Below, one piece after another: positions 35,001-39,345 of a stretch of DNA of 39,345 bases (the first letter of the stretch is position 1; each line of letters opens with the position of its first letter). Below the pieces are notes generated by a model. The model was given only the letters and a program-made list of their open reading frames with translations, was not told where the DNA came from and made no database searches. A program made the translations under genes and the position numbers. This stretch comes from an uncultured Pseudomonadota bacterium (GTDB taxonomy: Bacteria > Pseudomonadota > Alphaproteobacteria > RF32 > CAG-239): positions 1 through 39,345 of the forward strand of contig CASGEB010000017.1 of the NCBI GenBank assembly GCA_949300375.1, in the 5' to 3' direction.

Positions 35001-35354
35001 ATGAAAGTGGCAGGTTATGCAACGGAAAATGCCTTTTGCATTGCAGAGGGTGAGGAAGGGGAGATTTATGTCTTTCTGACGGCAAAAAAGAATCAGCCCC
35101 AAATGCCGAAAATTATTTATGACGGCAAAGACCATGCCATTTTTTTGCGTAATCCCGAGCAGAAGATTATTTTGGATTATATTCATCCCGATGTGCGCGA
35201 TAAATTGCGAAAGGCTAAAGAAGTTGTGATTGTTGAGACGCTTTTGGAGAATATTAAAGACAGTTATATTGCACAGATGCAGATGGTGGAGCATATTCCG
35301 GTCGATTGGCAGAAAATCGGGCTGAAAAGCTGGGAAGAGGCCGCCTTGCGATAA
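35001..35354 (+). CDS. Small soluble protein of unknown function
   Basis: The 117-residue product looks like a compact alpha/beta domain (YATENAFCIAEGEEGEIYVF, PKIIYDGKDHAIFLRNPEQK, RKAKEVVIVETLLENI) with no export signal. Its start is six bases after the preceding stop, so the two are co-transcribed; the ribosome-binding site is probably the GAGAGG within the end of that gene. Function is unknown. Confidence 0.72.
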   Translation: MKVAGYATENAFCIAEGEEGEIYVFLTAKKNQPQMPKIIYDGKDHAIFLRNPEQKIILDYIHPDVRDKLRKAKEVVIVETLLENIKDSYIAQMQMVEHIPVDWQKIGLKSWEEAALR

Positions 35355-35379
35355 TTTTGCAAAATGCTTGAAAAAAAGC

Positions 35380-35408
35380 TTGCAAGTTTGCCGATTTTGC
35401 TTTATAAA
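35380..35408 (+). promoter_or_regulatory. tRNA-Glu promoter
   Basis: TTGCAA at 35380-35385 and TATAAA at 35403-35408 are 17 bases apart, about 19 bases before the tRNA. The hairpin GCCGATTT/AAATCGGC (35390-35413) overlaps the spacer and -10. Confidence 0.7.
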
Positions 35409-35426
35409 TCGGCTTTGTTATATAAC

Positions 35427-35502
35427 GGTCCTATCGTCTAGCGGTCTAGGACGTCGCCCTCTCACGGCGAAAACACGAGTTCGAGTCTCGTTAGGATCAC
35501 CA
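35427..35502 (+). tRNA. tRNA-Glu (anticodon CTC)
   Basis: The 76-base gene has a seven-base acceptor stem (GGTCCTA with TAGGATC), then discriminator A and an encoded CCA. The anticodon stem TCGCC/GGCGA encloses the loop CTCTCAC, placing anticodon CTC at 35461-35463. The T-arm loop TTCGAGT is normal. The identity elements resemble E. coli tRNA-Glu. It is followed by a terminator and then by AT-rich accessory DNA, so it is a likely integration site. Confidence 0.96.
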
Positions 35503-35506
35503 ATGC

Positions 35507-35536
35507 AAACGGCAGGTATAAAAACTGCCGTTTTTC
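35507..35536 (+). terminator. Terminator after tRNA-Glu
   Basis: AAACGGCAG (35507-35515) pairs with CTGCCGTTT (35525-35533) and is followed by a run of T. It ends the tRNA transcript. Confidence 0.88.
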
Positions 35537-36025
35537 TTTTATAAATCAATAACTTAACCGAGTTCGAATGTTTGTTTTTCGAAAATTGCATTTTGGGAGA
35601 ATTTTCCGAACTCGTTTGGCAATAATCCTTTATTTTTCAACAACTTGCCTGAGTTAGAATCTTGTTAGGTCTCGGGATTGACTTTTAGTTATGAATCGGA
35701 TTTGAAACTTGCGATGATGAAAGTTTTTGACGTTGACGACAGTTTATTCTGCTAAAATAAGCAGGATATAGCTAGGACGACCAGTTTCATCTTGACTTCC
35801 TTTTTTTCTTAAATTTTTTTGCTTAAACAGTATCTCTTCAAAAAAGGCTATTTTTTTCAACTAGCCCCTTATAACACGTGAGATAAAAAATTCACCTAGC
35901 CTTTTTCAGTAAGCCATATTTTTACAACTTATGACATAGCTAAGTCATAGGTTATCCTTACATATTTTTGGCTTTACGTTTTTTTAAATCCCGATAATAT
36001 AAGATAAATTTAGGAGGATTTTACT
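35537..36025. other. Gene-free, AT-rich tRNA-proximal region with inverted repeats
   Basis: No gene is supported here. A nested hairpin lies at 35559-35614, where CGAGTTCG pairs with CGAACTCG and GAAAATT with AATTTTC. GAGTTAGAATCTTGTTAGG at 35651-35669 resembles the T-arm and acceptor end of tRNA-Glu. AAAAAGGCTA at 35841 pairs with TAGCCTTTTT at 35897. TATGAC and GTCATA at 35930-35949 form a short dyad about 75 bases before the HTH gene and could be an operator. Confidence 0.55.
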
Positions 36026-36586
36026 ATGACTGATTTGAGAGAAAATTTTATAAGATGGTTAATAAAAGAAGGTTTATCCGAAAAAACACCGTCAGGAAAT
36101 CCAAGTACTGTTTATGATTATGTAGCCAGAATTGATGAAATATGCAAAAAAGAAAGACATATCTTTTGGGAAGAATTAGCTGGAAAACTGTTTTCCATTG
36201 CTCCTCGTTATCAAGGTAAATATAAAACAGCCTTACATAAATATAATGAGTTTTTATTTAAAACAGAACTCAGCAGAGAGATTATGAAACAAAGACATAA
36301 AGATTTATTGTATGCATATTCTAAATTGAGTGATAAAGACAAAGAAAAAATAGAGACAAGAGAATATATAACAACACGGGAACTTGCGGATATATTGGGA
36401 GTGGATGTTCGTCAGATAAAGCGTTGGCGAGAAAAACGTATAACACTACATAAAGAAGATCAAATTGAAGAAAATCCTCAAGGGGATGCAAAAATTGGTC
36501 CTAAATTTGTACAGGTTGGTGGACTGTATAGATATTATAAAGATGATTTGGAAAAATACTTCCATCGCTCAATAGAAAAAATGTAA
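36026..36586 (+). CDS. HTH protein with integrase-like N-terminal SAM domain
   Basis: The 186-residue product begins with a helical segment (FIRWLIKEGLSEKTPSGNPS, then STVYDYVARIDEICKKE, then TALHKYNEFL) that resembles the core-binding SAM-like domain of tyrosine recombinases. There is no catalytic domain. The C-terminal part contains EYITTRELADILGVDVRQIK, a MerR/excisionase-like helix-turn-helix. A strong AGGAGG stands eight bases before the ATG. Codon use is AT-rich, unlike genes before the tRNA. It probably binds DNA and may regulate the adjoining methyltransferase or act as a recombination accessory; neither is shown. It lies 292 bases before the methyltransferase. Confidence 0.75.
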   Translation: MTDLRENFIRWLIKEGLSEKTPSGNPSTVYDYVARIDEICKKERHIFWEELAGKLFSIAPRYQGKYKTALHKYNEFLFKTELSREIMKQRHKDLLYAYSKLSDKDKEKIETREYITTRELADILGVDVRQIKRWREKRITLHKEDQIEENPQGDAKIGPKFVQVGGLYRYYKDDLEKYFHRSIEKM

Positions 36587-36878
36587 AAAATAATATCCCT
36601 TATCGAATCGACATACAAATATTCCGAATCCATATTTTGATATTGCAAAAAATAATAAATTTTGACTATTTTTTGTAATCGTTTTTTGTATTTACACATC
36701 TATCTCCTAATTATTTTGTTTTTAGTGTCATCTCTTGTGATATTTTTGTCACCAATTGCCATTTTGACTATATTTTTCAATATGTTAGTGTGTTTGATGT
36801 CAGTTGATATTACTGATATGCCAAGCGAAAACCGAGTGGTTGGGAAGGCATAATGCTTTTTATTATGGAGAATAACTT
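36587..36878. other. AT-rich spacer before the methyltransferase
   Basis: A short hydrophobic open frame runs through part of this stretch (36662-36853, TTG start) but has no ribosome-binding site and a T-rich composition. I see no convincing gene. GGAG at about 36867-36870 serves the methyltransferase start. Confidence 0.4.
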
Positions 36879-38228
36879 ATGGCACAAGAAAATTTAAAAA
36901 TCGCCGCTAACCAAAATGGCGAAGCGGCACAAAAGATTTCCGGAGACACAATTCAGACCGGATATGTAGAAGTAACAGAGACACGGGTTCAAAGCAGTGC
37001 ACTTGAAAAAATGCTTGACCGGGCAGAACAGCTCCAAGAGAAACAAGCTCAGAATGATAATAATGGTGACAATAACGGCGGAGACTATCCGGGGCCAGCA
37101 AATTTTGGGTGCCCTGCTGTCGTTGAGAATGCTATTGATGACAAAAACAGTCTCCCTCAAGTCTATATTGATATTAACGAAGTTGCTAAAAAAACTCACA
37201 TCTCCAAAAAAGAATTGGCGGAGCTGTGTTCTGGAAACAGCAAGTCATTATCCATACCTACTGATTTACTGGATTTAAACAAATTCATCTCGGTTAATCA
37301 GGGTTACGCTTCAACTGCCGGAGCTTTAGCAAGAAGAAAAATTCTACCGCCTGAGACCAGAACGTACTTCTTAAAACGTGCCCAAGAATACGGTTATCTC
37401 TGGCTTAAGGGAGAGGTACAGTTAGGCAATGAGATCCGTAAAATTGTAACCCGCATGGGTAAGCGTACCGACTTGGAAGTGGCGAATGACAATAAGAAAA
37501 AGCAAAGAAATACTGCCGATTTTGGTCAAGTATTGACTGAGTTACGCACAAAAAAAGAAATTTTGACTGAAGACTATGGTCTTGGGAACACACAAGCTCG
37601 GCAGCTGACTCGTTTGACAGATGAGTTGGTTGAAAAAGAATTAAAATATGCGGTTGCAAACAACGACATATTGTCCCGCAATCATGCGCTTTCCTTTCTT
37701 AATCAGCCTCCGGAATTGACTGATGAAGAAAAAGAGGCTGCTGATACTAAAAGCCCCAAAGCTAAATTCAAGTTCGAAACAATTCGTTCAACAATTCCTT
37801 TTGAACAACGTCAGAAACGCAAATTAAAGCACAAAATGCCATATTGTCACTTGTTCGCATGTGCTATGTCCGATGGATATTATCTTGAACAACATGGATT
37901 TGAATGTGTTTTGGCAAATGAAAAAGAGAGTGATATTGCCGAGTACTGTCAATTAATGTATCCCAAAGCCGAAGTTTTGGATGATGATTTCAGAAAACGG
38001 TATGGTGAGTTAGTTGAGAAATTCAAGGTAAAAAAATGCGAGTTCCTGCTTATAACAAATCCGTGCCAAATATTTTGCCCTCAAAAGCCGAAGAATTGGA
38101 GAGATGATGACAGACTGACATTAATTATTGATATTGTCCGTTTCATTAAAGAAACCAGACCTAAACATATAACATATTCTGTTGGAAAATGCCAAGGCTT
38201 TCTTTTCCTTTTCGTTGCCATTGGATGA
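36879..38228 (+). CDS. DNA cytosine-5 methyltransferase, N-terminal frame (motifs I-IV)
   Basis: The 449-residue frame has an N-terminal extension of about 320 residues: a low-complexity Asn/Gly stretch, then possible HTH-like helices (DINEVAKKTHISKKELAELC, and RTKKEILTEDYGLGNTQARQ). The methyltransferase part starts at CHLFACAMSDGYYLEQHGFE (motif I, but with its usual glycines replaced), then VLANEKESD. Motif IV is LLITNPCQIF, with the catalytic Cys at about residue 396. The frame ends 18 residues after the expected start of motif VI, reading SVGKCQGFLF instead of the Glu-Asn motif. The rest of the enzyme lies in the +1 frame. The ATG has GGAG eight bases upstream. It should methylate cytosine if the frame is restored. 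Confidence 0.8.
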   Translation: MAQENLKIAANQNGEAAQKISGDTIQTGYVEVTETRVQSSALEKMLDRAEQLQEKQAQNDNNGDNNGGDYPGPANFGCPAVVENAIDDKNSLPQVYIDINEVAKKTHISKKELAELCSGNSKSLSIPTDLLDLNKFISVNQGYASTAGALARRKILPPETRTYFLKRAQEYGYLWLKGEVQLGNEIRKIVTRMGKRTDLEVANDNKKKQRNTADFGQVLTELRTKKEILTEDYGLGNTQARQLTRLTDELVEKELKYAVANNDILSRNHALSFLNQPPELTDEEKEAADTKSPKAKFKFETIRSTIPFEQRQKRKLKHKMPYCHLFACAMSDGYYLEQHGFECVLANEKESDIAEYCQLMYPKAEVLDDDFRKRYGELVEKFKVKKCEFLLITNPCQIFCPQKPKNWRDDDRLTLIIDIVRFIKETRPKHITYSVGKCQGFLFLFVAIG

Positions 38229-38982
38229 GGAGCTTACAGAACACCCGATTGCCGAAAAATTGCAGAAAATTTTGAACGGTCGCACCATCGGAGATTATCT
38301 GCGAGATGAGTTAACCGTTGAAGATTTAGGATATCACGTAAATTTTGCTATTGAAGACAGTTGTTTCTACGGCTGTGCTCAGTCAAGAGTACGCAGTATC
38401 ATGCTTGCATCAACAGAAGGTGTCTGGAAGTGGCCATGTGCAGAAGAATTTGCAATGTCTCTATGGGAAGCTATTGGACACTTGCCTTCATTGGAAGCCG
38501 GAGAAAATAGCGGAATTCCTTATCACTATGCTAAGCCTTTACATTCTGATCCGATTAAAGCAGCTAAAATTGCTGAAGCTTTGGCTCATACTTCTACGGG
38601 AAGATGTCCTAAAGATAATGATCCAAGATATCAGCTTCCCGGCTTTGGCTTTTTTGGTGCTAAAGGTGCTCGCAAGTTTTGGGATAAACCATCTAATACT
38701 ATTGATACAGGAAATGGTGATGTTTTAGGTCTTCGCACTATTCATCCAGGTAGACTTCGTAAAGATGGTACCTATTCCGATGCTCGTCCTCTAACATTGC
38801 TTGAAGTGTTTTTGGTAAATGGACTTGAAAATTATGAAGTTCCTGACAAATTCAAGAATCGTGAGAGCTTTGTCCGTCATTTGATGGGAGAAATTTTCTT
38901 GCCCAAATTATGCGAAAGGATTTGTTTAGAAATCCCAGTTGGTGATGACGGTTGGGAGGAAATGGATACCGATTCTGAATAA
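38182..38982 (+). CDS. DNA cytosine-5 methyltransferase, C-terminal frame (motifs VI-X)
   Basis: This frame completes the preceding enzyme. Its first residues, (L/M)ENAKAFFSF, are motif VI (ENV-like) and fit directly after RPKHITYS of the upstream frame. CFYGCAQSRVRSIMLA is motif VIII (QxRxR). The target-recognition region follows (FGAKGARKFWDKPSNTIDTG), then RPLTLLEVFLVNGLENYEV as motif IX and FVRHLMGEIFLPKL as motif X. A TAA at 38170-38172 closes this frame just upstream, and no ribosome-binding site is visible, so it is not an independent gene. It is either a frameshifted pseudogene or the product of +1 frameshifting. A terminator follows at 39003. Confidence 0.8.
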   Translation: MENAKAFFSFSLPLDEELTEHPIAEKLQKILNGRTIGDYLRDELTVEDLGYHVNFAIEDSCFYGCAQSRVRSIMLASTEGVWKWPCAEEFAMSLWEAIGHLPSLEAGENSGIPYHYAKPLHSDPIKAAKIAEALAHTSTGRCPKDNDPRYQLPGFGFFGAKGARKFWDKPSNTIDTGNGDVLGLRTIHPGRLRKDGTYSDARPLTLLEVFLVNGLENYEVPDKFKNRESFVRHLMGEIFLPKLCERICLEIPVGDDGWEEMDTDSE

Positions 38983-39002
38983 TTATTAAAAATAATATTC
39001 GT

Positions 39003-39040
39003 CAACCTTTGACACCGCTATGTTAAAGGTTGGCTTTTTT
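39003..39040 (+). terminator. Terminator after the methyltransferase
   Basis: CAACCTTT (39003-39010) pairs with AAAGGTTG (39025-39032), extended by GACA with TGTT, and is followed by GGCTTTTTT. It ends the methyltransferase transcript. Confidence 0.82.
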
Positions 39041-39345
39041 ATATACATCGCAAATTTTCAAAAGTATGCAAAAAAAATATACTATTTGGAAATTTTTTTA
39101 TCAAATTTGTGCAAAAAAACAATTCTATAAAATTGTATCGTCATCAACCGGTTACCAAGATCCATCATAATCTTGTATAGCTGTTTCGGCAGTCCGGGAT
39201 ACAAGGAAGCAAGAAGCGCGGCCTTTGTTATTATTATACTTAAAATATAATGAATTAAAAATAATAAATAACAATAAAAAATATAATAAATACAATAGAT
39301 AAGATAATAATAAAGATAAATAAAAGAAATAATACATAAGAGATA
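39041..39345. other. Gene-free, very AT-rich end of window
   Basis: No gene is supported. From about 39230 the plus strand is almost only A and T with scattered G (ATAATAAA and AGATAA-like words), a low-complexity tract. The accessory region continues past the window edge. Confidence 0.5.

Follow-up and report, generated by a model that had tools for sequence, protein, structure and literature searches.

The window, the whole stretch of DNA analysed here (39,345 nucleotides), is the entire contig C17 of a metagenome-type draft assembly from an uncultured alphaproteobacterium (1.64 Mb, 98.9% complete, 57 contigs). It carries part of a genomic island, whose cargo includes a C5-cytosine DNA methyltransferase gene 1.4 kb downstream of a tRNA-Glu. 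The features of this region are as follows.

35427..35502, + strand: tRNA-Glu (CTC); the island starts at its 3' end
36026..36586, + strand: HTH_17/excisionase-like island gene, between the tRNA-Glu and the methylase
36879..38228, + strand: upstream frame of the broken C5-methyltransferase, with a ~310-aa N-terminal extension and motifs I-IV; stop TGA 38226-38228
37848..37910, + strand: motif I variant HLFACAMSDGYYLEQHGFECV, common to intact homologues
38055..38075, + strand: motif IV TNPCQIF, placed by homologue alignment (TPPCQTF in intact homologues)
38072..38982, + strand: recombinant 3' tract, diverging from L034 by 1.8% vs 12.7% upstream of the junction
38164..38177, + strand: 7-bp tandem duplication AACATAT x2, the actual lesion; close homologues have one copy
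38173..38982, + strand: downstream frame, starting HILLENAKAFF (motif VI) right after TAA 38170-38172
38990..39345, + strand: terminator and conserved non-coding segment, present downstream of several related island methylases and running to the contig end

A methyltransferase gene divided between two frames

On profile search, the N-terminal part of PF00145 was matched by the 449-aa ORF at 36879-38228 and the C-terminal part by the frame ending at 38982, which bears out the proposal of an earlier note on this DNA that a methyltransferase is divided here between two frames. The two halves scored 41.5 and 25.8 bits and an intact homologue (L035) scored 83, all above the curated cut-off of 22, which places them in the C5-methyltransferase family. 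The two stops that had been said to bracket the shift, the TAA in the downstream frame and the TGA in the upstream frame, were likewise confirmed. The off-frame tail of the upstream frame begins past H430-I431, and the downstream frame, which is 97% identical in amino acids to the intact homologues, contains motif VI, motif VIII (QSRVRS), the target-recognition region and motifs IX-X. The window DNA keeps the Pro-Cys (IV), Glu-Asn (VI) and QxRxR (VIII) motifs divided over two frames, whereas in the homologues all three lie in one continuous protein; the gene is a broken member of the family. It is the sole PF00145 gene in the whole draft genome. Alignment with M.HhaI equates the motif VI glutamate, residue 434 of the intact protein, with Glu119, a residue called essential in the title of one of the papers that PMC3404938 cites, and puts the frame break 2-3 residues ahead of this catalytic Glu. 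An AlphaFold model of the intact homologue L035 had a mean pLDDT of 38 and was set aside.

Motif I of the window, HLFACAMSDGYYL, does lack the usual glycines, as had been noted previously, yet this is common to the intact relatives. FACAMS replaces the glycine-rich FxGxG in intact close relatives too, and other members have FACFGT or FSCIGT. Judged from these sequences, the unusual motif I is a family trait and not damage, and its use as a sign of decay was ruled out by the presence of the same variant in intact relatives. Motif IV retains Cys396 but carries two changes beside this catalytic residue on the window branch, P394N and T398I, which may hint at relaxed constraint, the numbers being very small.

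The AACATAT duplication

DNA alignment showed that intact close relatives read CCTA-AACATAT-TCTGTTGGAAAATGCC where the window reads CCTA-AACATAT-AACATAT-TCTG. Past their single heptamer these relatives continue TCTG TTG GAA AAT GCC, exactly as the window does past its second copy, and the duplication is the sole indel across 2,097 aligned coding bases between the window and L034/L035. It moves the frame by +7 just ahead of the motif VI glutamate, and since +7 is equivalent to +1 modulo 3, skipping one base had appeared to repair the frame. The lesion had accordingly been described as one extra G at 38181, a description that does not survive comparison with the close homologues, every one of which points instead to the seven-base duplication. 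The continuous motif obtained by that repair, ITYSLENAKAF, has two residues found in no homologue; the ancestral region is RPKHILLENAKAFF, and its HILLENAKAFF is intact in the downstream frame.

The intact gene is one 698-aa ORF in three genomes belonging to two other genera of the same family (G054, G060, G129), and also in a fourth record, L034, with 97% amino acid identity over the C-terminal half in each case. Three of the contigs are present twice in our comparison (L005/L035, L006/L037 and L007/L036), such that seven loci represent four genomes; the heptamer is single-copy in all four of these L034-type genomes. More distant homologues (L008/L041, L009/L039, L010/L038, L040 and L011) have no insertion, and each forms a single ORF 701-716 aa long. 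Counting distinct genomes, one protein of 698-716 aa is encoded by nine of nine relatives at at least 63% identity. When 153 genomes of the order were searched for either form, one copy was found in three and two copies only in the genome of the window, and the viral contigs contained neither heptamer state, nor any copy of the methylase by protein or DNA patterns.

Disruptions were also seen elsewhere in this group of enzymes. A related methylase at L026 (genome G031, ~1998-2013) has a frameshift of its own near motif IX, which leaves a 540-aa ORF with the rest in a different frame; this is an independent disruption, in keeping with dispensable cargo of islands being lost from time to time. 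Two more family members, L016 and G016:C78:10739-11311, have an in-frame stop (TAA, TAG) in the matched stretch, which suggests occasional decay of such methylases.

Island context and recombination

A site without this island was available in a genome of the same genus (G003, L066), which is 95% identical to the window up to the tRNA end (~35508) and divergent thereafter; since the identity stops at this point, the island begins there. In the related island at L035 3052-8450 the place of the HTH/excisionase-like gene is taken by a protein of 431 aa with no assigned family. Downstream of the methylase, the relatives L035 and L026 have a gene with a REP_ORF2-G2P domain, and the window contig stops short of such a gene; these islands may be a family of integrative elements that bear a Rep gene, within this bacterial family. 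Within the segment downstream of the methylase, the non-coding stretch 39080-39341 is 87-93% conserved across several genera, also beside unlike C5-methylases (e.g. L020), and contig ends of several genomes lie within it. The conserved segment was considered as a hairpin origin and rejected, its fold not being significant (z -0.9), and an Rfam search of 35300-39345 matched the tRNA alone. The few neighbouring genes tested included no recognisable restriction enzyme, and because the search was confined to these, the label 'orphan' is provisional.

The drop in mismatches at ~38072, taken together with residues 1-300 of the window gene being closer to L038 than to L034, identifies the allele as a recombinant between island versions. 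These 300 residues form the N-terminal extension (36879-37780), which has no Pfam or NCBIfam match and is 93% identical in DNA to L038 while the core is divergent; the extension is a module that islands exchange separately from the catalytic core. The 3' half differs from L034 by 16 mismatches in ~904 bp, and from codon 430 onward there are eight synonymous and eight amino-acid-changing codons, with no other stop and no other indel. So few mismatches in a C-terminal half this similar to its relatives, free of further stops and indels, mark the duplication as young, and too young for dN/dS to reveal relaxed selection.

Origin of the broken allele

With the duplication, the intact relatives and the island context observed, we consider it probable, at roughly three chances in four, that a recent slipped-strand 7-bp duplication inactivated an island-borne C5-methyltransferase, leaving an ordinary loss-of-function allele. 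The island at the 3' end of tRNA-Glu would have borne a solitary C5-cytosine DNA methyltransferase of ~700 aa. Slippage would then have doubled AACATAT and shifted the frame in the stretch leading to motif VI, such that translation would stop 18 codons past the last ancestral residue, Ile431. The predicted truncated product would be without Glu434, motif VIII, the target-recognition region and motifs IX-X, and on the strength of these missing motifs it should be catalytically dead. A very recent mutation was one of the options raised in the earlier note and is the best supported of them, although its type is a +7 tandem duplication and not a +1 change at G38181.

It is unlikely that the second heptamer is an assembly or sequencing artefact, with a single AACATAT and an unbroken gene in the real genome. 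The metagenome-type draft in 57 contigs and the position of the lesion, ~1.2 kb from a contig end lying in inter-island repeated sequence, speak for such an error, but a perfect 7-bp duplication is atypical of base-call or homopolymer errors, and no obvious breaks are seen in the window's remaining long ORFs, several of which contain other 7-bp tandem pairs. A phase-variable methyltransferase, which slippage would turn ON at one copy and OFF at two, is less probable again and gains no positive support here. The earlier note had raised such a switch, which is formally conceivable in that the lesion amounts to a short tandem repeat within an ORF whose remainder is intact, and phase-variable mod genes do switch via slippage in repeats within the ORF (PMC8125046). 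However, the known switches are long tracts (17-19 units in modS2, PMC8125046), whereas here there are two units against one in the homologues, none of which has more; the site is deep within the catalytic core, and a second state was not seen among the genomes compared, one per species. The more specific proposal, a minimal reversible switch formed by the heptamer just ahead of the active-site glutamate of an orphan, island-borne C5-methyltransferase, is correspondingly more doubtful.

Least credible of all is a programmed +1 frameshift, or an enzyme made of two polypeptides from the two ORFs. Two-chain C5-methyltransferases are known (M.AquI and M.EcoHK31I, with motifs I-VIII on the larger chain), and split fragments of M.SssI or M.HhaI can complement each other (PMC3404938), but M.AquI is divided, and artificial splits work best, after motif VIII and not at motif VI (PMC3404938). 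Inspection by eye revealed neither a Shine-Dalgarno sequence ahead of TTG 38182 nor a recognised slippery site. When the homologues were aligned, as the earlier note had advised, the close ones proved to be continuous single ORFs and not pairs of genes; they conserve neither a frame arrangement of the programmed kind nor a split with a second start, the split being unique to the genome of the window; programmed frameshifting or a divided gene, as a conserved arrangement, is thereby ruled out.

The analysis corrects the lesion from +1 to 7 bp and places the odd motif I in a family of C5-methyltransferases that have an N-terminal extension and are carried on tRNA-associated islands. On our preferred reading, recent inactivation by duplication, the broken copy would be an ordinary case of island cargo loss; it would be a small phase switch if reads showed both repeat states.

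Among known systems, the gene resembles the M.HhaI-type C5-methyltransferases (PF00145) in its motif order I-IV-VI-VIII-IX/X, the Pro-Cys nucleophile, the Glu-Asn of motif VI, the QxRxR of motif VIII and a local match to M.HhaI itself, and differs in its N-terminal extension of ~310 aa that matches no Pfam family, in FACAMS in place of FxGxG and in the frame broken before motif VI. With phase-variable SSR methyltransferases (type III ModS) it shares frame disruption by a change in tandem-repeat length, but it is a C5 enzyme with 2 units compared with 17-19 in modS2, and its ON/OFF states were not observed. As in M.AquI and M.EcoHK31I, two ORFs together hold all the motifs, although the split here falls before motif VI, the homologues are single ORFs and there is no dedicated second start. 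The island itself, in its start at the tRNA-Glu 3' end, its HTH/excisionase-like gene and the downstream G2P-like Rep gene seen in relatives of the window, is akin to tRNA-associated islands with a Rep (ORF2/G2P-like) gene, and unlike them in that it has no recognised known integrase family and its right end lies off the contig.
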